This document shows, piece after piece, positions 1 to 11,300 of a DNA stretch of 15,929 nt (its first letter is position 1; every line of letters begins with the position of its first letter). The stretch is from Candidatus Mancarchaeum sp. (GTDB lineage Archaea; Micrarchaeota; Micrarchaeia; Micrarchaeales; Micrarchaeaceae). Under the pieces are notes generated by a model. It was not told where the DNA came from and ran no database searches. It was given only the letters and a program-made list of their open reading frames with translations. Location of the stretch: the NCBI GenBank assembly GCA_027364995.1, contig DAHXOG010000005.1, forward strand, positions 1-15,929, given 5' to 3'. Both the position numbers and the translations under genes were made by a program.

Positions 1-1
1 G

Positions 2-103
2 AACAGGGATGTAGAAATCGTATCTGAGATTGAGGAGAAATTCAATGAGGCACATAAGCTCATCGAGGGTTATGAGTTCGTGCTCGTTCCGAAACGCAAA
101 TAG
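2..103 (+). CDS. 3' end of an unidentified protein gene (partial)
   Basis: An open frame enters from the left edge and ends at a TAG at 101-103. The 33 visible residues are charged and probably helical, finishing EFVLVPKRK. The basic tail and the EIEEKF helix give no family assignment, so no function is proposed. The stop lies only 5 nt before the thymidine kinase start, so the two genes are probably co-transcribed. The fragment is too short for firm coding statistics; the uninterrupted frame and tight linkage are the main support. Confidence 0.55.
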   Translation, partial: NRDVEIVSEIEEKFNEAHKLIEGYEFVLVPKRK

Positions 104-108
104 ACTGT

Positions 109-702
109 TTGGTGTATTATACGAGAAAGCGCTTAAGCATAGGTAGACTAGTCGTGATTACAGGCCCGATGTTTTCAGGAAAGACATCAAGGCTGATAGA
201 ATTGCTCGAGAGGGAGCGCTTCGCAGGCAGGAAGGTCATATTATTCAAGCCCGAGATGGATAAGCGCTATTCCGAGAATATGGTAAAGACACATAAGGGA
301 ATAGAGCTTGACGCTACAATAGTGAAGACCAATAGTTCAGGGATAAAAGCGCTGATTAACGTGGCGTCAGACTATGATGTTATAGGTGTCGACGAGGCGC
401 AATTTTGGGATGAGAACTCCGGAATTGAAGAGGCGCTTAACAATCTTGCGAGCAGCAAAAAGATTGTTTATGTATCTACACTGAACAAGGATTATAAGGG
501 GAGGCCGTTCTCCGTATCGGAAAACCTTTTAGCGTATGCGGATACGATACACTCATTGACAGCAGTATGCACTAAATGCGGAGAGGATGCAGTATTCTCG
601 CAAAGGATGATTGACGGGGTAGAAGAATCAGGACCAAGGATAGTTATTGGAGGCAAGGAGGCGTACCAGCCGAGATGCAGGAACTGCTTTGTTGTGCAAT
701 AG
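109..702 (+). CDS. tdk: Thymidine kinase (class II, TK1-like)
   Basis: Phosphorylates thymidine (and probably deoxyuridine) with ATP to give dTMP in the cytosolic salvage pathway. Seen: P-loop GPMFSGKT at residues 19-26; Walker B/catalytic segment VDEAQFW at about 94-100, with E96 in the position of the family's catalytic base; a lasso-like segment NKDYKGRPF followed by SENLLAYAD; and a structural zinc site made of C154-x2-C157 and C190-x2-C193. The 197-residue length is normal for the family. No ATG is available: the start is TTG 109 or GTG 112, with no clear Shine-Dalgarno, 5 nt after the preceding stop. It converges on the ECF ATPase gene with only 5 nt between the two stop codons, so the transcripts must overlap. 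The assignment is secure; the exact start is not. Confidence 0.95.
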   Translation: MVYYTRKRLSIGRLVVITGPMFSGKTSRLIELLERERFAGRKVILFKPEMDKRYSENMVKTHKGIELDATIVKTNSSGIKALINVASDYDVIGVDEAQFWDENSGIEEALNNLASSKKIVYVSTLNKDYKGRPFSVSENLLAYADTIHSLTAVCTKCGEDAVFSQRMIDGVEESGPRIVIGGKEAYQPRCRNCFVVQ

Positions 703-707
703 CCGGC

Positions 708-3275
708 TTATTCCCCTATTTTCATTATTCCTATGTTTATTACTATTTTGTCCTTGGAATTTATCAGGGATTTTAATTCTTCTGCTGTTTCGTTGTTACT
801 CGAAATTATGGCCGCGCACAAATATGCCCCATAGCCTTTTATGTAATTGGCATTCCTCACTCCAATAAGTTTCTTTATGCCAAGTATGTCTGAAGCGAGC
901 CTTGCATATATTGCAGTAGTTGGATTTTCATAGATTATGACTTCTGGATTTTTGCCGGAAGATTTGAATGCATTTTCCATTAGTGATATCTCCTTTGCAT
1001 AGCGATTATCCAATTGCGTTGAGAAATGTTCGTTAAGCTCTTTGAGCATTTTTGGGTTTGAAGCTTTGAACTCGCGTATTGACTCGTTCTTTTCATAGTC
1101 AAATACCACCCACGTGGTGTTTTCCACCTCTTCCGCAATGATGTCAGGCTTTATTATTGAATGGGGTTTTGCCATCATTGTGCATGTTGAAAAATTAGAA
1201 TCTGGGAAGCGCTGCTTAAGCGTATGCATTATGGTATCCAGTGTTTTGCCGGTATCGACAAGCTCGTCAACAACAATGTATTGCCCTTTGGGCTTTAGGT
1301 CCAATGATTCTATTCCGTTTACATTGACATCTTTTGTGAGCGCACCGATTTCGTTATAATGGCTTGCCGATATGGAGTATGATTCGCAGTTCAGCGATTC
1401 TGCCAGCATTGAGCCGAGGATCATACCTCCGCGTTCTATTGATATTATGCCAGAAGGCTTGCCGAAGCTTTGGATCTTGCTTAATATTTTCAGCTTGGCT
1501 TTTTCTATATCGCCGAACGACCTGAACGCTATGCTTGTCTTTGATTTCATAAAATCGAAGAATTCTAGCCACTCCTTTGCGCTTATCAATGGCTCCTTCA
1601 ATACCCCGATGTTAATCATCTCCTTGGATAGCCTTACGGATTGAGGCTCCGAAAGCGAAGATAACTTAAGTATGCTGTCGTTCATGAAAAGAGATTCCGG
1701 CGTACCGTCAAAAACAAGTGAGCCCCTGCTCATAACCAATACCCTCCTGCAGTATTCCGCGACAAGCCGCATGTCGTGTGTTATGAGGATTATCGTGACG
1801 CCTTCGTCGTTTAATTTTTTTATAAGTTCCATTATCTCTGTGGACATGTGGTAGTCCTGGCCTGTGGTAGGCTCGTCAACTATCAGTATTTCTGGCTTTA
1901 GCACTATGCTGCTTGCCACTGCAAGCCTGCGCTTCTGGCCTCTCCCAAGGAAAACAGGGTCCTCATTGGCCTTGTCGGAAAGCCCTACCTTCTCCAGTAT
2001 TCCGGATACCATTTCCGATGCGTGGGTTCCCGTTATGCCTGCGTTGTTAAGAGAGTATTTTATCTCGTCGGTAACGCTGCGCGTGAATATCTGATGGTCC
2101 GGGTTCTGAAACACATAACTTACGTGCATTGGGAGCTTTGACCTGGTTTTTTTGTTTGTCGGCTTTATGCCTGCTATTTCCATGGTGCCTGATGAGGGCG
2201 CCAGTATTCCGGATATTATCTTCGAAAGCGTGCTCTTGCCGGAGCCGTTTTGGCCTACAAGCGCAACAAGCGAGCCCTTCTCTATGCTTATATCTATATT
2301 CTCTAGCGCCTTTGTGCCGTCATCATAGGAAAAGCCTATGCCTTTCATGCTTATTATGGATTCGCTGTGTTTCTGTATCGCCCTTTCTATGCTGAATCCA
2401 GACTTTTCTATTGTTACCTTTGGGCTTTCGTCTATGGAGAAATATTCGGAAAGCTCGGAGATTTCAGGCGTGTATACGTTATACTTTTTTGTAAGCTCGT
2501 TGTTTGAATATATCTTCGATGGCTTGTCAACCGCTATGAGTGAGCCCTCGTACAGCACCGCCATCCTGTCTGCAAACTTAAGCATAAGCTCGGGGTTGTG
2601 CTCTACAAGTATTATTGTCATTTTCGACTCGGACTTGAGCTTTGCTATGGTCTCTATCACCTCAAGCTTGCCCTTCGGGTCTAGGTCTGAAGTAGGCTCA
2701 TCAAGTATCAGTATCTTGGGCCTCATAGCCAGGAAGCTTGCTATGACCAATCTTTGCTTCTGTCCCCCTGAAAGCTCTGAAGGGTGAATCCTGCTCGCGC
2801 CTTGGTAAAGCTCTCCCAATCCGACCATTTCCATTGCGGCCTTTATCCGCTCTTCCATTTCGCTCTTTTCCAGGCCCATCATCTGGAGCCCCAAGGACAT
2901 CTCATTCATCACGCTCATGCTAAGGAACTGGCTTTCCGGATCCTGCATCACCAGACCCACTTCTGGAGACATTGAGCCTACGCCAGTTATGGCAGGCTTG
3001 CCGTTTTCGTTTTTTATGGCAGTTACGGCCTCGCCCAGCACGCGTATTTCTCCCTTTATGCCATCGTCAAGATTAAGCGGAAGCTTTATCTGGTGCGGTA
3101 TAAGCCCTGCAATTGCGTAGCACAATGTGCTCTTGCCTGAGCCGCTGGGCCCAGTAATGCCGAAGAATTCGCCCTCGTTTATCTCAAGGCTTATGGCCTT
3201 CAGCGCATAGTCTCCCTTTATGCCAGTAAAGTTCGGATACCTCCAGTAAAAATCATTTATGCTAACAGCATGCAA
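708..3275 (-). CDS. Fused ECF transporter ATPase (EcfA-EcfA) with C-terminal purine-type phosphoribosyltransferase
   Basis: An 855-residue chain that combines the energising ATPases of an ECF importer with a salvage enzyme. ABC domain 1 (about 1-290) has Walker A GPSGSGKST 42-50, Q-loop Q111, signature LSGGQ 168-172, Walker B ILILDEP 188-194 and H226. ABC domain 2 (about 305-540) has Walker A GQNGSGKST 341-349, Q390, Walker B ILIVDEP 463-469 and H500, but its signature is the degenerate LGRGQ (443-447). Residues about 555-755 look like a type I phosphoribosyltransferase: IERGG 613-617, the PRPP loop VVDELVDTGKT 668-678, and a PD...WVVFDYE region (710-728) resembling archaeal Hpt/xanthine-guanine enzymes of the COG2236 type. 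Residues 756-855 are unassigned. The start is TTG 3275, 5 nt after GGGTG and 12 nt past the ecfT stop. Inferred role: ATP-driven uptake of a nucleobase coupled to its conversion to a nucleotide. Domain calls are strong; the substrate is inferred. Confidence 0.9.
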   Translation of the reverse strand: MHAVSINDFYWRYPNFTGIKGDYALKAISLEINEGEFFGITGPSGSGKSTLCYAIAGLIPHQIKLPLNLDDGIKGEIRVLGEAVTAIKNENGKPAITGVGSMSPEVGLVMQDPESQFLSMSVMNEMSLGLQMMGLEKSEMEERIKAAMEMVGLGELYQGASRIHPSELSGGQKQRLVIASFLAMRPKILILDEPTSDLDPKGKLEVIETIAKLKSESKMTIILVEHNPELMLKFADRMAVLYEGSLIAVDKPSKIYSNNELTKKYNVYTPEISELSEYFSIDESPKVTIEKSGFSIERAIQKHSESIISMKGIGFSYDDGTKALENIDISIEKGSLVALVGQNGSGKSTLSKIISGILAPSSGTMEIAGIKPTNKKTRSKLPMHVSYVFQNPDHQIFTRSVTDEIKYSLNNAGITGTHASEMVSGILEKVGLSDKANEDPVFLGRGQKRRLAVASSIVLKPEILIVDEPTTGQDYHMSTEIMELIKKLNDEGVTIILITHDMRLVAEYCRRVLVMSRGSLVFDGTPESLFMNDSILKLSSLSEPQSVRLSKEMINIGVLKEPLISAKEWLEFFDFMKSKTSIAFRSFGDIEKAKLKILSKIQSFGKPSGIISIERGGMILGSMLAESLNCESYSISASHYNEIGALTKDVNVNGIESLDLKPKGQYIVVDELVDTGKTLDTIMHTLKQRFPDSNFSTCTMMAKPHSIIKPDIIAEEVENTTWVVFDYEKNESIREFKASNPKMLKELNEHFSTQLDNRYAKEISLMENAFKSSGKNPEVIIYENPTTAIYARLASDILGIKKLIGVRNANYIKGYGAYLCAAIISSNNETAEELKSLINSKDKIVINIGIMKIGE

Positions 3276-3287
3276 TAAAACACCCAG

Positions 3288-4118
3288 TTATTGTGCCATG
3301 AATGGCAGCAAAAGCATGAATATGCCGAACGCTATAATTGTGAAATCGCTATAGCGCATGCGCTTTTCATCTATGAAGTTCGAAAACTTTTTTGTTTTCG
3401 AAAAGCCCCTGGACTCCAATGCGAAGCCCATATCAACAGACCTTTTTATAATGGATGTCGTTAACGGTATAGAAAGCATCATGAACGCGCTTACCCTCTT
3501 GAATATATTATCGGAATTTGATCCTGCTCCCCTTGCAAACTGCGCCTGCTTTATGGAGTTGAGGTCATCGGCCATTATATTGAGGCTTCTTGCTATCAAT
3601 GAGGCAAAAAAGACCAATTTGAATGGCAGTTTTAGCTTGTTTAATGCAGATATTATATCTGCATCCCTGGTGCTCATTATGGTAAGCAGCGTCATAAGGG
3701 CCATTGAGGCATACCCTGAGACCTTGCCTATCCCCACATATAATGACAGGTAAGTAATGTGAAGCGTCGCTCCCAGAAATGATACGCTCAATATGGGATT
3801 GGATCCCACCTGATTGAAAATAATCCACCATACCATCATAACCATAAGCGCCACGAGAAGCAATGAGAGGTAGCTTTTTACGAGATATTTTATTGTGCCG
3901 CTTTCTATAAGGAAGCCTACTGCTAGGACCAATACCAATAGGTTGTATTGCAGATCCGGGACTGCATGCAGCATGGAGATTACTACGCCTACCGACAGCA
4001 TGATCAATAATGCGAATTTTGCTATGGGATTCATATTCACGTAGAATGAGCTAGAGCGCGCAGAGAATAGTATAGTTTTGACCATACGTTTCTCCGCCCT
4101 TTGGTTTTTGCTCTCCAT
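3288..4118 (-). CDS. ecfT: ECF transporter transmembrane coupling subunit EcfT (CbiQ family)
   Basis: EcfT is the membrane scaffold that links the substrate-binding S component to the ATPase pair through two cytoplasmic coupling helices. The 276-residue protein has hydrophobic segments near residues 31-52, 57-72, 82-102, 115-150 and 258-274. It carries both hallmark Ala/Ser-Arg-Gly motifs of the family: ARG at 195-197 (QFARGAG) and SRG at 236-238 (LESRGF). In EcfT proteins these arginines dock into the ATPases. The ATG at 4118 abuts the ecfS TAG with no spacer, so the genes are likely translationally coupled. The stop TAA is followed 12 nt later by the ATPase TTG start in the same reading frame, so the two proteins are separated by one stop codon. 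Confidence 0.92.
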   Translation of the reverse strand: MESKNQRAEKRMVKTILFSARSSSFYVNMNPIAKFALLIMLSVGVVISMLHAVPDLQYNLLVLVLAVGFLIESGTIKYLVKSYLSLLLVALMVMMVWWIIFNQVGSNPILSVSFLGATLHITYLSLYVGIGKVSGYASMALMTLLTIMSTRDADIISALNKLKLPFKLVFFASLIARSLNIMADDLNSIKQAQFARGAGSNSDNIFKRVSAFMMLSIPLTTSIIKRSVDMGFALESRGFSKTKKFSNFIDEKRMRYSDFTIIAFGIFMLLLPFMAQ

Positions 4119-4772
4119 CTAAGATACCCATCCAGTGTTTATCAGCCCGAATCTCTCAACTACAGGAGTGACGTACTTCGAAAGGAATGGCGCGATAAGC
4201 AGCACTATTGCGTCGCCGAGAATCCACAGGCCTGCACCCAATGCATACGCAGACGCTGGAACGAATCCCAAAAGCACCAACACCCAGACGCCCCAAAGCC
4301 CTCCTATTATGTTTGTTATTCCCATAACCCATATCGCAAACCATGCGGCGGATTTCTTGCTTTTAAGTATGTCCCTACCAAGTGGGTCGACGCCATGCTT
4401 GCGCAGATAGCCTCTGTATAGCAGGAATATCAGCAATGCGGGAACTAGGTCGCCGATGCTGAACGCCATGGCGGGAATTACGGGCAGGCCGGTGAGCAAT
4501 CCTGAGCCCACAAACGAGCCAAGCCATGCACCGAATATTCCCCAAAAGCCCCACCATAATGTAAAAACCACGAAGAATGGATATGCCCAGAAGAGGAATC
4601 CTATTCCCGGGCCGACAACCGGTGTGGCTATGGCGCCGAGCCACGAGAGAAGTATTATCACGGCCATCTGTATGGCAAAAAGCGCATATTGCGTCGTGGT
4701 AAGCTTGCTACCGTGCCACCTAAGCGTATACTGCGAAAACCTGTCACTAATACTTGAAGTAGATTCACCCAT
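4119..4772 (-). CDS. ECF transporter substrate-binding membrane component (EcfS), ligand unknown
   Basis: A polytopic membrane protein of 217 residues with about six hydrophobic segments after a short polar N-terminus. Tryptophan and glycine are abundant (the WWGFWGIFGAWLGSF stretch near residue 75), and a conserved-looking SIGDLVP loop joins two membrane segments. Size, topology and position directly upstream of ecfT and the ATPase gene identify it as the S component, which captures the substrate with high affinity. I cannot place it in a named vitamin family (RibU, ThiT, BioY, QueT and so on). The phosphoribosyltransferase fused to its ATPase suggests a purine or related base, but this is inference. 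The start is ATG 4772; GTG 4775 directly before it is an alternative. A GGGG motif lies about 10 nt upstream, inside a possible RNA hairpin. Confidence 0.8.
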   Translation of the reverse strand: MGESTSSISDRFSQYTLRWHGSKLTTTQYALFAIQMAVIILLSWLGAIATPVVGPGIGFLFWAYPFFVVFTLWWGFWGIFGAWLGSFVGSGLLTGLPVIPAMAFSIGDLVPALLIFLLYRGYLRKHGVDPLGRDILKSKKSAAWFAIWVMGITNIIGGLWGVWVLVLLGFVPASAYALGAGLWILGDAIVLLIAPFLSKYVTPVVERFGLINTGWVS

Positions 4773-4802
4773 CACATAACCCCATTAATTTGTAGATGGG
4801 TT
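4767..4802 (-). promoter_or_regulatory. Foldable leader over the ecfS start (possible translational control)
   Basis: In the minus-strand transcript, ACCCATC (4801-4795) can pair perfectly over 7 bp with GATGGGT (4773-4767), which contains the ecfS start codon. The overlapping AACCCAT (4802-4796) can instead pair with ATGGGGTT (4785-4778), which holds the only G-rich Shine-Dalgarno candidate, leaving one bulged G. The two structures are mutually exclusive, as expected for a switch, but both would hide translation signals. This is a pattern in one sequence with no known riboswitch class recognised. It matters only if transcription starts upstream of 4802. Confidence 0.3.
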
Positions 4803-4803
4803 C

Positions 4804-4812
4804 ATTTAAAAA
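4804..4812 (-). promoter_or_regulatory. Proximal TATA-like element for ecfS operon
   Basis: The minus strand reads TTTTTAAAT, centred about 36 nt before the ATG at 4772. That would place transcription start near 4783 and give a leader of about 10 nt. A second, distal TATA candidate lies at 4864-4878, and which of the two is used decides whether the foldable leader is transcribed. Confidence 0.4.
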
Positions 4813-4863
4813 GGTAGCATTTTTACTCCTTAAAAAGGTTGTGGGTTTTGAATTTTTTGGTTT

Positions 4864-4878
4864 GGTTTTTATATTTAA
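4864..4878. promoter_or_regulatory. AT-rich TATA-like element usable in both directions
   Basis: The minus strand reads TTAAATATAAAAACC, a strong archaeal TATA shape. It would start transcription near 4845 and give ecfS a leader of about 70 nt. That leader contains a mini-ORF (ATG at 4820, four codons, TAA) preceded by GGAG with 5 nt spacing. The plus strand reads TTTTTATATTTAA and could drive a rightward transcript starting near 4898. Direction is not resolved. Confidence 0.4.
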
Positions 4879-5067
4879 CCATACAATGATTTGGTTGGAT
4901 ATCAGATGTGAAAAAAGCCACATTGGAAATCATAAGCCAGAGAAAACTGTTTCTTTATGACAGGATTTTGCCGTTAAGTTGCGGAATAATAAAGGCTGTA
5001 GCAATAGCGCCACAAAATCAGCCATGAATCCCACGAACATACATACCTTAATCTCCACTGTGCCCTT

Positions 5068-5388
5068 TCAGAAGCTTATTGGAGTGTAGCCATCGTCTAT
5101 GCTTTTGGTTATGTATTCGCCAGCCTTTACGAGGTTAATCTTCTCTCCCAGCTTGTCCTCTATTTTCGCATTTTGGGCAACGAATATGCATGCGGAAGGC
5201 TTGCCGTCCTTGAAAGAGTCGCCAACAAGCTTGCCCAACTCTTCGTCGCTTGCTACCGCAACCTCGCTTGGCCCGAAGAACAGTACGCGGACATCGTGCC
5301 CGGCTTGCTGCTGCCTCACGCTGAAATTTATCCCCAGGCTTATCTTGTCCTTCTCCTTGCTCGATATTATTGACAGTATTTTAGTCAT
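5068..5388 (-). CDS. DsrE-family-like small protein
   Basis: A 106-residue protein with the alternating beta/alpha pattern of the DsrE/DsrF fold. An N-terminal strand (TKILSIIS) is followed by a helix ending QQQAGHDVRVLFFGP, then ACIFVAQNA with a single cysteine at C67, at the place where DsrE relatives carry their sulfur-accepting or redox cysteine. Family members act in sulfur relay or as peroxiredoxin-like accessory proteins; the substrate here is unknown. The ATG at 5388 has a good Shine-Dalgarno, GGTGA with 5 nt spacing, formed just after the preceding gene's TAA. It is the second gene of a two-gene operon with a helical unknown protein. Family assignment is by pattern only, moderate confidence. 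Confidence 0.6.
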   Translation of the reverse strand: MTKILSIISSKEKDKISLGINFSVRQQQAGHDVRVLFFGPSEVAVASDEELGKLVGDSFKDGKPSACIFVAQNAKIEDKLGEKINLVKAGEYITKSIDDGYTPISF

Positions 5389-5398
5389 TTTCTCACCA

Positions 5399-5731
5399 TT
5401 AATCAGGAAGCTTCTCTATTATTTCGCTCATTTCCTTGTAATGCTTTTTGATGATCTTGTCAGCTTTCGGGCCAAGCATTTTTTCGGTATTCAGCCTGCA
5501 CATCTCCATTGATTGCTTGAGTCCGTCCTTGGTGGGATTGTTGATGTCCACATTGCATTTCCTGAAAGCATCGCCTACGAAAAGCTTTACCCTTGCATTT
5601 AGCTCCTTCTTTGGAACATTTTGGTCTAAAGCCTTGTTTATCTCTTCATTTGCGGTTTCAAAGCAATTAATTAGCCTTTTGACAGCAATCTTTCCCGTTA
5701 CTGATCCCGCTTTTGTATTTTCAGCGCCCAT
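5399..5731 (-). CDS. Hypothetical helical protein in operon with dsrE-like gene
   Basis: A 110-residue protein that I do not recognise. It is rich in Lys, Glu, Asn and Ala and predicted by eye to be almost entirely helical, with no membrane segment or signal peptide. Three cysteines (C23, C59, C78) and a KADKIIKKHYKEM amphipathic helix near the C-terminus stand out. The ATG at 5731 is weakly preceded by GGTAA; a TATA box lies 33 nt upstream. Its stop is 10 nt before the dsrE-like ATG, so the two are co-expressed and may act together, possibly with the cysteines taking part in thiol chemistry. That last point is speculation. Confidence 0.75.
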   Translation of the reverse strand: MGAENTKAGSVTGKIAVKRLINCFETANEEINKALDQNVPKKELNARVKLFVGDAFRKCNVDINNPTKDGLKQSMEMCRLNTEKMLGPKADKIIKKHYKEMSEIIEKLPD

Positions 5732-5758
5732 GTTTACCGTATTATAAATGATTAAAAT

Positions 5759-5768
5759 AAAATATAAA
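5759..5768 (-). promoter_or_regulatory. TATA box for the helical-protein/dsrE-like operon
   Basis: The minus strand reads TTTATATTTT, centred 33 nt before the ATG at 5731, giving a predicted transcription start near 5738 and a very short leader. It sits in a 129-nt divergent, AT-rich intergenic region shared with the carbonic-anhydrase-like gene on the plus strand. Confidence 0.5.
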
Positions 5769-5822
5769 CATAAACCGAAAAGTTATTTATTTTAATAAAA
5801 ATTTGTACATTACATAGGATTC

Positions 5823-5833
5823 ATAAATTTTAA
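5823..5833 (+). promoter_or_regulatory. TATA box for the carbonic-anhydrase-like gene
   Basis: ATAAATTTTAA on the plus strand predicts transcription start near 5853, 8 nt before ATG 5861. This argues against the upstream GTG at 5843 and TTG at 5849 as starts. A second AT-rich stretch at 5782-5798 could be an alternative. Confidence 0.45.
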
Positions 5834-5860
5834 GCGCTATTTGTGTGCTTGCGTGATTTA

Positions 5861-6568
5861 ATGGAAGAGCTAGGAATATTTTGCATGGACAGGAGGTTCA
5901 ACAAGTATATAGAGGAAAAATACCCAGATATGTTTGTCATAAGGAATGCAGGAGCAAACATAAATCCTATTATCGCGGAGATAAGGAAGGCAGTGAGGGA
6001 TAATGGTATAAAAGAGATAAAGGTTTTTACGCATAACGATTGCGGGGCCATGAAGAAGGTAATGTCGGTATTGAAAGATGGCAAACAAGCAGAGGAAGAG
6101 CTAGCCTCAAGCTTGGTGAGCCAGTTCAATGGAATGAGCTTTTCATCGGCGGAAGAGCTTGAGAATGAGAATACAAAGCTGCAATTGAATGCATTAAAGA
6201 GGGAGTTCCCGGAGCTTAAGGTAAGCGCAGAGCTTTTGGATACCAAAAGCATAGTGAATAATGATAAAAAGCTTGAGCATGTGTTGATTATAGCAAGCCC
6301 AGGAAAGCCAAATTACTCGGAGGTATTTGAGAACGAAGGTCTTGACCCGTTGCAATGTTATGTCATACAATCGCAAATAGACGCCTCGATGCCTGATATA
6401 AGGCTGGCGGTTAAGGACCTTGATGCAAAAAATGTCATAATCGTGACCGGGAATAAGGACAACCCCAGAGACTCTAAGCTTCATGAAGAGCTTTTAAGGA
6501 TAAGGCTTTCGGATTTGAACCCTGCCATTAAAAGAGTAGACATAAGAAAGGTAAAAAAGCGCGAGTAG
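5861..6568 (+). CDS. Beta-carbonic-anhydrase-like protein with extra C-terminal half
   Basis: The first ~110 of 235 residues carry the complete active-site pattern of beta-class carbonic anhydrases. C8-x-D10-x-R12 gives the first zinc ligand and the Asp-Arg dyad; RNAGANI at 28-34 and H58-x2-C61 (THNDCGAM) give the other two zinc ligands. The expected activity is reversible CO2 hydration in the cytosol, although some family members act on CS2 or COS, or serve other roles. The C-terminal half (about 115-235) contains an alpha/beta stretch, VLIIASPGKPN, and another, VIIVTGNKDNP. It is not a typical carbonic anhydrase extension and might be a degenerate second copy. ATG 5861 is preferred because GTGAT lies 3 nt upstream and the TATA box fits. 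A single-gene unit ending at a T-rich terminator. Confidence 0.78.
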   Translation: MEELGIFCMDRRFNKYIEEKYPDMFVIRNAGANINPIIAEIRKAVRDNGIKEIKVFTHNDCGAMKKVMSVLKDGKQAEEELASSLVSQFNGMSFSSAEELENENTKLQLNALKREFPELKVSAELLDTKSIVNNDKKLEHVLIIASPGKPNYSEVFENEGLDPLQCYVIQSQIDASMPDIRLAVKDLDAKNVIIVTGNKDNPRDSKLHEELLRIRLSDLNPAIKRVDIRKVKKRE

Positions 6569-6572
6569 ATTG

Positions 6573-6603
6573 CGCTCTTTTTATTCTTATTCTTATTTTT
6601 TAT
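6573..6603 (+). terminator. T-tract terminator after the carbonic-anhydrase-like gene
   Basis: Successive T-runs (CTCTTTTTATTC, then TTATTC, then TTATTTTTTATC) begin 5 nt after the stop codon. Archaeal RNA polymerase terminates on such T-rich non-template tracts without needing a hairpin. It isolates this gene from thyA-folA downstream. Confidence 0.6.
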
Positions 6604-6629
6604 CGGTTGAGAATGTGGCATGGAAACAC

Positions 6630-6639
6630 ATTTATATTT
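6630..6639 (+). promoter_or_regulatory. TATA box for thyA-folA
   Basis: ATTTATATTT predicts a transcript start near 6660. That leaves room for the AGGTG Shine-Dalgarno at 6673-6677 before ATG 6685 and makes ATG 6664 an unlikely start. Confidence 0.55.
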
Positions 6640-6684
6640 CGGAATTGCATCTGAAATGGTTCTATGTATTTCAGGTGTATAGAT

Positions 6685-7635
6685 ATGGCTGAAAGGTTAA
6701 GGTATAATGATGGTTTTCCAAAGAGCATTAAAGATCTTTTAAGGGAGAAGGAGGTAAATGCAGATACTGCTTATCTTGGCATAGTTAAGAAGGTATTCGA
6801 TGAAGGAATATGGAAGGACAACAGGACTGGCATAAGGACAATTGCCGTTGCTGGAGCTATGTTCGATTATGATATGAAAAACGGCTTCCCCTTGCTTACA
6901 ACGAAAAAGATGCCGTTCAAGATGATAGCTTCGGAGCTTGAATTCTTTATAAAGGGGATAACAGATAAAAAATGGCTTCAGGACAGAGGAAATACCATAT
7001 GGAATGAATGGGCTAACCCTGAAAAGGCCCCATACGGGCATGACGATAAATCTAAGGCGCGCATGAGGGAAGAGCGTGATTTGGGCCCAGTATATGGCTG
7101 GCAGTGGAGGCATTTCGGGGCGGAGTACTTGGGATACGATACCGATTATACGGGAAAGGGCTTTGACCAGTTGGCCAGCGTAATTGAAACGCTTAAGAAG
7201 GACCCGGATAATAGGAGGATGATAGTATCTGCATGGAACCCTCAGCAGCTTGGACAAATGGCCTTGCCGCCATGCCATTGGGGATTCCAGGTGACTGTAA
7301 TTGACGGAAAACTTAATCTGTTATGGAATCAGAGATCAGTAGATACGATGGTTGGGCTGCCTTTCAACATAGCCAGCTATGGCTTATTATTACACCTAAT
7401 TGCTAAAGAGGCAGGCTTAAAAGAGGGCAAGCTCATCGGCTTCCTTGGAGATGTGCATATATATGAGAACCATATAGATGGGGCAAAGGAGCAGCTTTCC
7501 AGAGTTGCAAGGAAATACAATGCGCCAACATTGCGCACAGACAACTTCAAAAGCATATTTGACTGGAAATACACAGATAGCAGAATAGAGAATTATGAAA
7601 GCCACCCGAAGATAAGCTTCCCGATAGCGGTGTGA
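6685..7635 (+). CDS. thyA: Thymidylate synthase ThyA (folate-dependent)
   Basis: Converts dUMP and methylene-tetrahydrofolate to dTMP and dihydrofolate. Seen: DNRTGIRT near the N-terminus (phosphate-binding arginine loop), the RRMIVSAWNP segment, the catalytic cysteine C197 within PPCHWGFQ, and RSVDTMVGLPFNIASYGLLLHL for dUMP and folate binding, then GDVHIYENHID. The 316-residue length falls between the E. coli (264) and longer ThyA forms. I chose ATG 6685 over ATG 6664 because AGGTG sits 7 nt upstream and the TATA box at 6630 would barely include the earlier codon. Its end overlaps the folA translation signals. Ile codons are 15 ATA, 5 ATT and 1 ATC, matching the local bias, so there is no sign of very recent transfer. 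Very secure. Confidence 0.97.
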   Translation: MAERLRYNDGFPKSIKDLLREKEVNADTAYLGIVKKVFDEGIWKDNRTGIRTIAVAGAMFDYDMKNGFPLLTTKKMPFKMIASELEFFIKGITDKKWLQDRGNTIWNEWANPEKAPYGHDDKSKARMREERDLGPVYGWQWRHFGAEYLGYDTDYTGKGFDQLASVIETLKKDPDNRRMIVSAWNPQQLGQMALPPCHWGFQVTVIDGKLNLLWNQRSVDTMVGLPFNIASYGLLLHLIAKEAGLKEGKLIGFLGDVHIYENHIDGAKEQLSRVARKYNAPTLRTDNFKSIFDWKYTDSRIENYESHPKISFPIAV

Positions 7636-7637
7636 TT

Positions 7638-8120
7638 ATGGGCATTGGAATAGTAGTTGCAATGACTAGGGATAGGGTAATAGGCAACGATGGAAAAATA
7701 CCATGGCACATACGCGAGGAGTCTGAGCATTTCAAAAGGCTAACCTCAGGCAATACTGTGATAATGGGAAAGAACACGTGGCTATCGCTGCCGGAGAAGT
7801 TCAGGCCCTTGCCAGATAGGGTGAATATAATAGTGAGCTCTTCCCTTGGCGAACAAAAGGGCGCGATAGTATGCAGCACCATAAAAGAGGCCATCAAGGT
7901 GGCAGAGTCCATCAGCAATCGCGAAACATTCTGCATAGGTGGAGAGCAGCTTTACAAAACAATGCTGCCAATGGCAAATGTATTGCACGTATCATGGATA
8001 ATGGGCAACTATAACGGCAATGCCCATTTCCCTGAGATAAATTTTGCGGAATGGAAGCTCGATAAGGAGATAGAGAATACAAGATTTGTCTACGACAAAT
8101 ACTTGAGAAAACAAGAATAA
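7638..8120 (+). CDS. folA: Dihydrofolate reductase
   Basis: Reduces the dihydrofolate produced by ThyA back to tetrahydrofolate with NADPH. The 160-residue protein has all classical landmarks: IVVAMTRDRVIGNDGKIPWH with W23, the acidic substrate-binding residue E28 (Asp in E. coli), VIMGKNTWLSLP, and the NADPH-binding CIGGEQLY. ATG 7638 is preferred since GGTG at 7629-7632, inside the last thyA codons, lies 5 nt upstream. GTG 7632 would give a 4-nt overlap with the thyA TGA and is the alternative. Coupling of thyA and folA in one transcript keeps folate cycling balanced with dTMP synthesis. Confidence 0.97.
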   Translation: MGIGIVVAMTRDRVIGNDGKIPWHIREESEHFKRLTSGNTVIMGKNTWLSLPEKFRPLPDRVNIIVSSSLGEQKGAIVCSTIKEAIKVAESISNRETFCIGGEQLYKTMLPMANVLHVSWIMGNYNGNAHFPEINFAEWKLDKEIENTRFVYDKYLRKQE

Positions 8121-8197
8121 GAGAAAACGATTATTGAAGACCTCTCTGGATTATTTATTGGTTAAAAGGCCTCTTATCTGCATACTGATTATTCCAA

Positions 8198-8272
8198 TGG
8201 GCCTGGTGAGATTTGAACTCACGACCTACGGCTTATAAGACCGCCGCTCTGACCAAGCTGAGCTACAAGCCC
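8198..8272 (-). tRNA. tRNA-Ile (anticodon UAU)
   Basis: Read on the minus strand, the 75-nt gene folds into a full cloverleaf: acceptor GGGCTTG/CAGGCCC (one G-U), D-stem GCTC/GAGC, anticodon stem GCGGT/GCCGT with loop CTTATAA, T-stem GTGAG/CTCAC with loop TTCAAAT, and discriminator A73. The anticodon is TAT (8237-8235), which reads the AUA isoleucine codon. The body resembles tRNA-Ile(GAU) with G34 changed to U. There is no intron and no encoded CCA. Most archaea instead read AUA with a CAU anticodon modified to agmatidine, so this is unusual. The gene lies 111 nt downstream of aglB on the same strand; an AATAAATC element about 20 nt upstream is a weak promoter candidate. Confidence 0.96.
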
Positions 8273-8383
8273 ATTAGTTTGATGTTTGATTTATTGCGCA
8301 ACTGACGTTGTTACAGCATTGTTGCAAAGAATTATGCCGAAAAGCATATTTATTACTTTTGATAGTCTTATGATTTTATACGC

Positions 8384-11300
8384 TTACGGCATTGTGAGGT
8401 TGTTATGCACGTAGCTTGGCTTTGAAGGCACAGGTGCATTGCCTCCGGTGTAGTTGGTTATCTCGAGGATCCTCAATGGGTAAGTGCCGTTTACCAAGTT
8501 CTCTCCTGGAGTAGAGGTAACGTTAGGATATACCTGAGTGAATCCTGGGATTGAGCCGAACATGAATCCCTTGTAGAAGTTCGATACGTAGAATGATGAT
8601 GGTGCATCGGTTATGGTGTTGTTAGGGCCGTTCGGTGTGTAAACCACAAGGTATTGGACGAACTCTATGCCGTTTATGCTTGTAACTCCAAGATCGTATG
8701 ACAATGGTATCATTGCGTTTATTGCTGTGCCATTGCTGTCGTAGATCTGTATGCCGCCGTTCTTTGTGGGCGTTGTGCTTACGCATACAGTCTTATTTGA
8801 AAGCGAGTCGCCCACTGCAGTATATGCCTTTATGTATAGGTTCGTGCTGTTTGAAATGGAGCAGTAATAGTCTATGCTCTGCGAGCTGTTCGACCCTTCA
8901 AGCGCAGCCAATGGAAGGAAAGCGTATTCCGGATCATGCTCAAGCTCGCAAGGCGATGTGCCTAATGCATACGGTACAGGCGGAGATTGCGCTGCGCCCT
9001 GCGCTATTGCATAAGCCCTTGATGTTGCATTTATGTTAACGCAAGCCAAGAAGTCCAGCGCCTGCCATTTTTGTATAAGCCCCTGGTCAAACACCACATA
9101 ACGCGTCTGGTTTGTATTCATCATGTTGCGAAGCACTGCCGGTGTATAATTATCCTTCGGGCCAAGCACATAGCTTGCGGCCACTGCATAGTCCTCTGTT
9201 GGCCTTGCGTTGTCTCCGCGTATCACGGCATTGCTATGGCCGAACCAGTTTATCCAGTCGCCATAGTCCCACCATGCAAGAATGCGTGGCGCATTTGGAC
9301 CCACATTGGCGCGCATCCATGCTGCGGCATCAAGCCAATAACTGGGCACGACATTGCAGTAAAGGTCGTAGCCTATGCTTGATGTTATCGTATTGCATGC
9401 GGTCGCCGGGTTTGCTGAGTGAATAGCGCTTGCCTGAAGTGCAGATACAATGCTGCTTATCTCGCCGAGCATTAGGCTTCCGTTTACGGCGGTGCCTACG
9501 ATAAATATTATGAAAAATACTGCGAATATGGACCATAGCTGTTTTCTATAGCTGTCCATCTTGTGCATAAGTATAATTGCTATTATGAAAAGCAATGCGA
9601 ATATTGGAGATATGAAGAATACGCCTATGCTTAGCGCCCCTGTTATGTATAACTCAGCATTGTGCATCGGCTTCTGCTCGAAAAGGTCATCATACTTCGT
9701 TTTTGTTGCGAACTCGTATATGAAGCCTCCCGCGATCCCGAGCACTATGGCCAATATTATGCCATAGAATGATCCGAGCATTATCAATATGGCGCCTATT
9801 GCAACAAGCACGCTTATTATGGCCGCCTCGGCATACTTGAGCTTGAAGCCCGTCTTGAATAGGTATATGGCCTCCCCGAGTATTATGCACAGCATCAGTA
9901 TGAACACTGTGCCGAAGTGCGGAAGGTATTTTACCTCCGAAAAGCCAGCGAACATCAATGGCGTTATTATTGAAAGGTAGAGTATGGACGTATCGCTCTT
10001 CTTATAGAATACGCTTAGAGCTATAAGCACCAGCGCTATTATGCTTATTACCCACACCAGAATAGGCAATCCGAATATGTCTGCACCCAGGAATCCCAAA
10101 CCTGATGAGCCGAAGTTGTAGAGCGCTCCTGTTGGTATGAACTCCTCGACAGTCATGAACAATGGTGTTGAAGGCGTAGTAAACTTTTTGCTCAGGTTGA
10201 CATACGCCGTAATTGGCTTGCCCACTGGGGTAAAGGCTATTACTATAAAGGCTATTACCAGTATGAGCAGTATCCACTCCATATAAGCCTTCATGTCTAT
10301 TTCCTTGAATATGAGGTTGTACTTTGCCAGCAGCTTTGGGCCGTATTCTATTACGGCAACCACTATAAGCGCTATAAGCGGTCCGCTTATCGTTATTGGT
10401 ATGCCCAATATCTTAGGTATCCTTCCGGATAACGTGGCATGGTATGGTGAGTACATGGCCAGGAATATGGCTATTACGATTATGACTATGGCATTCATCT
10501 GGTAGAAGTACTTGCTGTTCTTGTTATGCAGCACGTTGACTACGCCCTGAAGCAGTATGTATATCGTCAATACGCCAGCATCTACGGTATAGTAGTGTGC
10601 GCCAAGGAATGTCGTCACGAATGCAAGGCCGGCCAATATGGCAAGGCGCTTGCTTTTCATATCGCGTATTGCAAGCATGTACGCTGCGAAGAAGAAGAAG
10701 AGCGTGAATATCCCCCAGGGCTCCAGCAATTGCTCGCCTGACACGAATGTCGTGTATAGCACTGGCATTGTGGATGCCAGCACAGCGCCTATAAGCGCGA
10801 TCTTCTCGCCATATTCATAATACAGTAGCATGAAAACTACAAACACAAGGAGTGCTGCGGTTATTGGAGGATATATGCCTCCGACGTAACTCATTAATGT
10901 GGTGGAGAATGTGGTATAGTGTGGCCCCATGGCGTTAGATAGATCATACCAGTACGCTTCAAGATACGGGACTACCGGTTGTATACGCATGCTCGTGCCT
11001 GCGGGAACTACCGGCCATGCGCTCGGCGATAAATATATCTGATATCCGAATGTCAATATGGATTCGGCGCTAAGCATATCGAAATAAGGGTCGAACTCGA
11101 AGAATTTCGGGGTTGTGCCCATGCTCATCATTCGCGTTCCCAATACGAGCAGCATAAGCAGCGCAAGCACAAGGTATGTCTTGTTTATCTGCATGCCTTT
11201 TGATGGCTTTACTATCGCTTCCTCTGCCTTTCCCGACGACAGCTTGTCAAGAAGTATGCGCTCCTCCTGCTCGTGGTCAGCTATCAGGCGGTCCTTCTCG

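Follow-up and report, generated by a model that had tools for sequence, protein, structure and literature searches.

An ECF-type ATPase chain carrying a putative phosphoribosyltransferase domain in Micrarchaeaceae: a candidate purine-base importer

Layout of the operon and of the fused chain

The window analysed here is the whole stretch of 15,929 nucleotides taken from contig DAHXOG010000005.1 of Candidatus Mancarchaeum sp. Its minus strand carries, between positions 708 and 4775, a three-gene operon in which an S component is followed by EcfT and then by one chain of 855 residues (Table 1); the intergenic gaps are 0 nt between S and EcfT and 12 nt between EcfT and the fused gene. A sequence-only reading of the same DNA had described this chain as two ABC ATPases joined to a type I phosphoribosyltransferase (PRTase), encoded in one operon with EcfT and an S component. 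Profile searches and domain matches bear out the composition of the chain, and both partner genes were located upstream of it in the operon.

Table 1. Coordinates of the operon and of the parts of the fused chain within the window.
Feature	Position	Strand	Basis and remarks
S component, 218 aa, six membrane helices	4119..4775	(-)	first gene of the operon; fold model and AxxxA motif
EcfT, 276 aa	3288..4118	(-)	PF02361 at 71.3 bits, over cut-off; solved EcfT chains matched
Fusion EcfA1-EcfA2-PRTase-decayed PRTase (putative), 855 aa, TTG start	708..3275	(-)	
EcfA1-type ATPase, fusion residues 1-285	2421..3275	(-)	ECF ATPase profiles, solved chains
EcfA2-type ATPase, fusion residues 305-530	1686..2363	(-)	signature motif LGRGQ
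PRTase domain, fusion residues 583-765	981..1529	(-)	PF00156 over cut-off; solved PRTases
Fusion tail, residues 766-855	711..980	(-)	about 774-813 by hhalign; remainder presumed to belong to the decayed copy

Both ATPase halves have ECF ATPase models as their top matches (201.9 and 236.1 bits), and the solved chains nearest to them are EcfA1/EcfA2. Taken singly, the halves stay under the 330-bit cut-off of the NCBIfam ECF equivalog model, which is a threshold for naming and not for mechanism. The whole 855-residue chain reaches 432.7 bits against the equivalog model as the sum of its two domains, and since that score adds up two domains, we withdrew it as proof of ECF membership.

The structure model of the S protein shows the six-helix fold of ECF S components. 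A search for solved sequence relatives of S gave a single match at an E-value of 0.65. In helix 1 the protein has an AxxxA motif (A34/A38), described in passages of PMC11109136 and PMC4820897 as the motif by which S components dock to EcfT. The motif is intact in all 11 genomes with EcfT, and it is broken in all five S components (L081-L085) from genomes where EcfT was not found; these five are possible solitary transporters.

Several other genes lie close to the operon. Thymidine kinase, thymidylate synthase and an overlapping dihydrofolate reductase occupy positions 109-702 and 6664-8120 on the plus strand, and thymidine kinase is the convergent neighbour of the operon also in Ca. Micrarchaeum sp. 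A_DKE (by eye) and in G007. A carbonic-anhydrase-family protein is encoded at 5843-6568 (+), with PF00484 at residues 12-142 of 241 and an extra C-terminal part. A search for RNA control elements in positions 1-8600 of the window brought only a tRNA to the gathering score. A tRNA-Ile with anticodon TAT is predicted at 8197-8273 (-); archaea usually read AUA by means of a modified CAU anticodon.

The PRTase domain and the C-terminal tail

Sequence profiles assign the C-terminal domain of the chain as a putative type I PRTase. It carries RGG at residues 615-617, the PRPP loop VDELVDTGKT at 669-678, K703, D711 and W722, with roles that we take from the Gpt/HGPRT enzymes. In 20 aligned PRTase rows, including those of the fusions P0043 and P0044, RGG 615-617, D670, D674, G676, K677, T678, K703 and W722 are invariant. 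The solved chains closest to the domain are the purine PRTases GpT-1 (4trb) and GpT-2 (4z1o) and the xanthine-guanine PRTase Gpt (1a95); the window domain shares with them the family, the PRPP loop and the aligned lysine and tryptophan, the latter matching in GpT-1 and GpT-2 a tryptophan that we take to be the base-site residue. Unlike these three enzymes, it is fused to a transporter, and in the genus of the window the PRPP loop reads D-E and not D-D, a variant also present in 7kl6. Moreover, where GpT-1 and GpT-2 have PW after the base-site tryptophan, the window domain has DY (within FDYE), which we count against the function proposed below. Among named PRTase models, none reached its cut-off, the best being the xanthine PRTase model NF006613 with 53.4 of 138 bits. 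Even so, the purine type put forward by the sequence-only reading is supported: the solved chains closest to the domain belong to purine PRTases, and the NCBIfam model that comes closest, albeit below its cut-off, describes a xanthine PRTase.

The PRTase domain is under purifying selection: its dN/dS is 0.06-0.11 in the six closest pairs within the genus, 0.10-0.12 in three pairs of the sister genus g10, and 0.15-0.21 or saturated in 15 other genus pairs. In PRTase trees, the fused sequences of Micrarchaeota and those of other origin fall apart with weak support, and such trees would fit either one fusion event or several. Concerning the underlying samples, the pattern used to collect one PRTase sequence set did not catch 10 of the 18 stand-alone loci, and four near-duplicates were removed from this set; in another, the pattern failed on all 18 stand-alone loci, leaving 16 fused and five separate rows. 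The alignment of fused chains comprises 16 chains and leaves out four of the nine matches of one search and three of the nine of another.

Behind the PRTase, residues of about 774-813 in the tail align over 40 columns to the RGG region of the fusion's own PRTase family (hhalign probability 97.1%, E-value 5.9e-11; the best of 40 column shuffles gave 0.81%), and the RGG itself is lost. The tail changes faster than the PRTase does: in the six genus pairs closest to each other its dN/dS is 0.18-0.32, compared with 0.06-0.11 for the PRTase, and in distant pairs it reaches up to 0.79 or is saturated. In all three g10 genomes, a second PRTase gene, intact and 184-200 aa long, comes directly after the fusion. 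Judged by this alignment, the tail looks like a decayed second PRTase copy, the remnant of the separate gene that g10 still keeps. In other genera of the family, the same PRTase family stands behind a different N-terminal domain (L016, 655-2409 (+); L018, 613-2409 (+); L019, 1306-3042 (-)), which resembles a nucleotidyltransferase by eye and gave no Pfam match in the two that were scanned; in these three loci the PRTase is followed by another partial PRTase copy.

Distribution, gene neighbourhoods and purine genes

The fusion, S and EcfT occur in the same order in all eight genomes of the genus that we examined and in all three genomes of g10, where the fused chain is 765-768 aa long. Among 85 genomes of the family, EcfT was found once in each of 11, which are exactly the 11 genomes with the fusion. 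Across 301 Micrarchaeota genomes, frames longer than 700 aa with this PRTase appeared, among the matches listed, only in those 11 and in one copy from G254. We rejected the latter (G254:C73) as an independent fusion: its identity to G102 is 99-100% and a contig end truncates it, so it is probably misbinned.

Outside the genus and its sister genus, the architecture recurs in six proteins of 736-754 aa, one of them labelled by its source as a Thermoplasmata archaeon. Labels of MAGs can be wrong, since a partial Micrarchaeum-like fusion carries a Methanothrix label. Given these six proteins, the device may extend beyond symbionts. Of the earlier proposal of a salvage device suited to a host-dependent archaeon, the salvage part is supported; a restriction to host-dependent archaea is not clear. 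Close S homologues also occur in MAGs labelled Thermoplasmata, the host group of Micrarchaeum (P0027, 69% identity; P0033, 68% over 58% of the query), with gene exchange or misbinning as possible origins. Four stretches from viral contigs matched the search pattern, and none of them encodes a relative.

The genes around S homologues point, by their predicted families, to a purine-salvage-like neighbourhood. In genus g19, S is present in three of five genomes and EcfT was found in none of the five; in those three, S shares its cluster with an NCS1-type permease and with genes for a PNP-family phosphorylase, a class II aldolase, an isomerase of the RpiB type and an amidohydrolase whose closest models are those of deaminases and chlorohydrolases. 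These genes reach their Pfam cut-offs and stay below those of named-enzyme models, and in one genome (G025) two transposon-like genes, recognised by eye, separate S from the remaining cluster. As such neighbours belong to nucleoside-handling families, S might carry nucleosides. Within the genus of the window, an NCS1-type permease divergently adjoins S in two of eight genomes (G001 and G007); NCS1 was not found in the other six, nor in the three g10 genomes, and the matches reach the cut-off of PF02133 and stay below those of the NCBIfam models. In genus g3 (G068 and G071), relatives of S adjoin a geranylgeranyl-reductase-type gene, which we count against a purine role, and one distant relative of S shows a weak match to QueT that stays below the cut-off (8.1e-6).

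Neither PurC, nor GMP synthase, nor PurA was detected in the 11 genomes that carry the fusion, with 14 of 14 controls positive for each of the three. The IMPDH model gave weak matches in nine of the 11, and those of the three genomes examined were all type 2 IPP isomerase. APRT, which would serve adenine separately from the fusion, is present in five of eight genus genomes and was not found in G000, G001, G004 and G016. A PF00156 search of nine genomes returned the fusion, PRPP synthetase (over cut-off in the genome of the window, elsewhere assigned by reading), APRT, a second PRTase in G016 and two weak frames of 253 aa; no frame of PurF size was among these matches, a tentative negative as regards PurF. 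Because most genomes are drafts, the absences are weak, except in the single-contig G002 and the 95%-complete G006. Together with the gene neighbours, the missing purine genes support the purine salvage suggested by the sequence-only reading. If the absences hold, IMP or XMP made from hypoxanthine or xanthine would be unusable dead ends, and guanine to GMP would therefore be the useful reaction.

Proposed function and alternatives

In the reading that we propose, the two ATPase domains would work together with EcfT and S as an ECF importer dedicated to a purine nucleobase, and the PRTase at the C-terminal end of the fused chain would join the incoming base with PRPP on the cytoplasmic side of the membrane. 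The product would be a charged nucleotide unable to leak out, so that the base would be trapped on entry. To a purine-base importer with a catalytically active PRTase we assign a probability of about 0.65. Guanine as the imported base, with GMP as the product, is the most likely choice, although a tentative one that we put slightly short of even odds.

It is an old question whether the uptake of purines can be coupled physically to their phosphoribosylation. The sequence-only reading inferred such a coupling for this chain, which would make the question testable on one protein. Channelling between importer and PRTase may be conceived in a stronger form, in which the tethered PRTase captures the base released by S before it is free in the cytosol, ATP drives entry, PRPP pulls, and the decayed copy completes an intramolecular pseudo-dimer. 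We consider such group translocation doubtful; if true, it would represent a one-chain device taking guanine from the host cell or the surroundings. The importer would point to where these archaea probably obtain their purines, and nucleobases could be added to the known ECF cargoes. From the group to which they belong, PMC5498576 reports the loss of purine biosynthesis and salvage in the ARMAN-2-related Mia14, and PMC8975820 reports incomplete DNA/RNA biosynthesis and few transporters in M. harzensis.

Of the alternatives, the one that survives best, though we still hold it to be rather unlikely, is that the fusion merely fixes equal amounts of the proteins, with uptake and the PRTase reaction uncoupled. 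Fusions often arise from operons, and in g19 a related PRTase is encoded separately; against this, the genus and the sister genus retain the fusion throughout, and it occurs elsewhere too. Quite unlikely, in our view, is a different cargo (a purine nucleoside, a deazapurine of the preQ0/queuosine type, or a vitamin), with the PRTase using another base or a product formed later. The phosphorylase- and deaminase-family genes beside S in g19 and the weak QueT match would agree with it, but the nucleobase permease of the NCS1 type next to S in two genus genomes and the fusion of the PRTase in every EcfT-bearing genome of the family argue against it. Less probable still is a sensor that binds PRPP and a nucleotide and throttles the ATPases, comparable to PurR, in which a PRTase-fold domain senses PRPP without catalysis. 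The attachment of the PRTase to the motor subunit would suit such a role, and the decay of the second copy means that non-catalytic PRTase pieces exist in this chain; however, the residues of catalytic type do not vary across the 20 rows, the sister genus retains its second intact copy alongside, and the window domain is not among the matches of the PurR model at an E-value of 0.01. Finally, we rejected an assembly chimera or misread gene as having a negligible chance: although the window is the whole of a short contig from a draft genome, the same frame and gene order recur in seven other genomes, one of them a single contig, so that all eight genus genomes carry the fusion.

Compared with known systems, the purine-base importer proposed here resembles the dedicated (group I) ECF transporters, the class that serves, for example, biotin or cobalt, in having S, EcfT, two ECF-type ATPases, the modelled S-component fold and the AxxxA motif. 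Unlike them, it has the two ATPases and an enzyme domain on one chain, and each ATPase half alone stays under the ECF equivalog cut-off; to our knowledge, a purine base is not among the ECF cargoes. The component parts are known, and their combination was not found in the literature searched: a search of titles and abstract openings, with subscription papers mostly outside its scope, met no such fusion. Double ECF ATPases on one chain also exist with no domain added to them; the window chain is like them in its two joined ATPases and unlike them in adding a PRTase. The fusions P0043 and P0044 differ further from these double ATPases, as the signature motif is gone from their first ATPase and its Walker B glutamate is replaced by D; despite this degraded first ATPase, the PRTase is well conserved in both.
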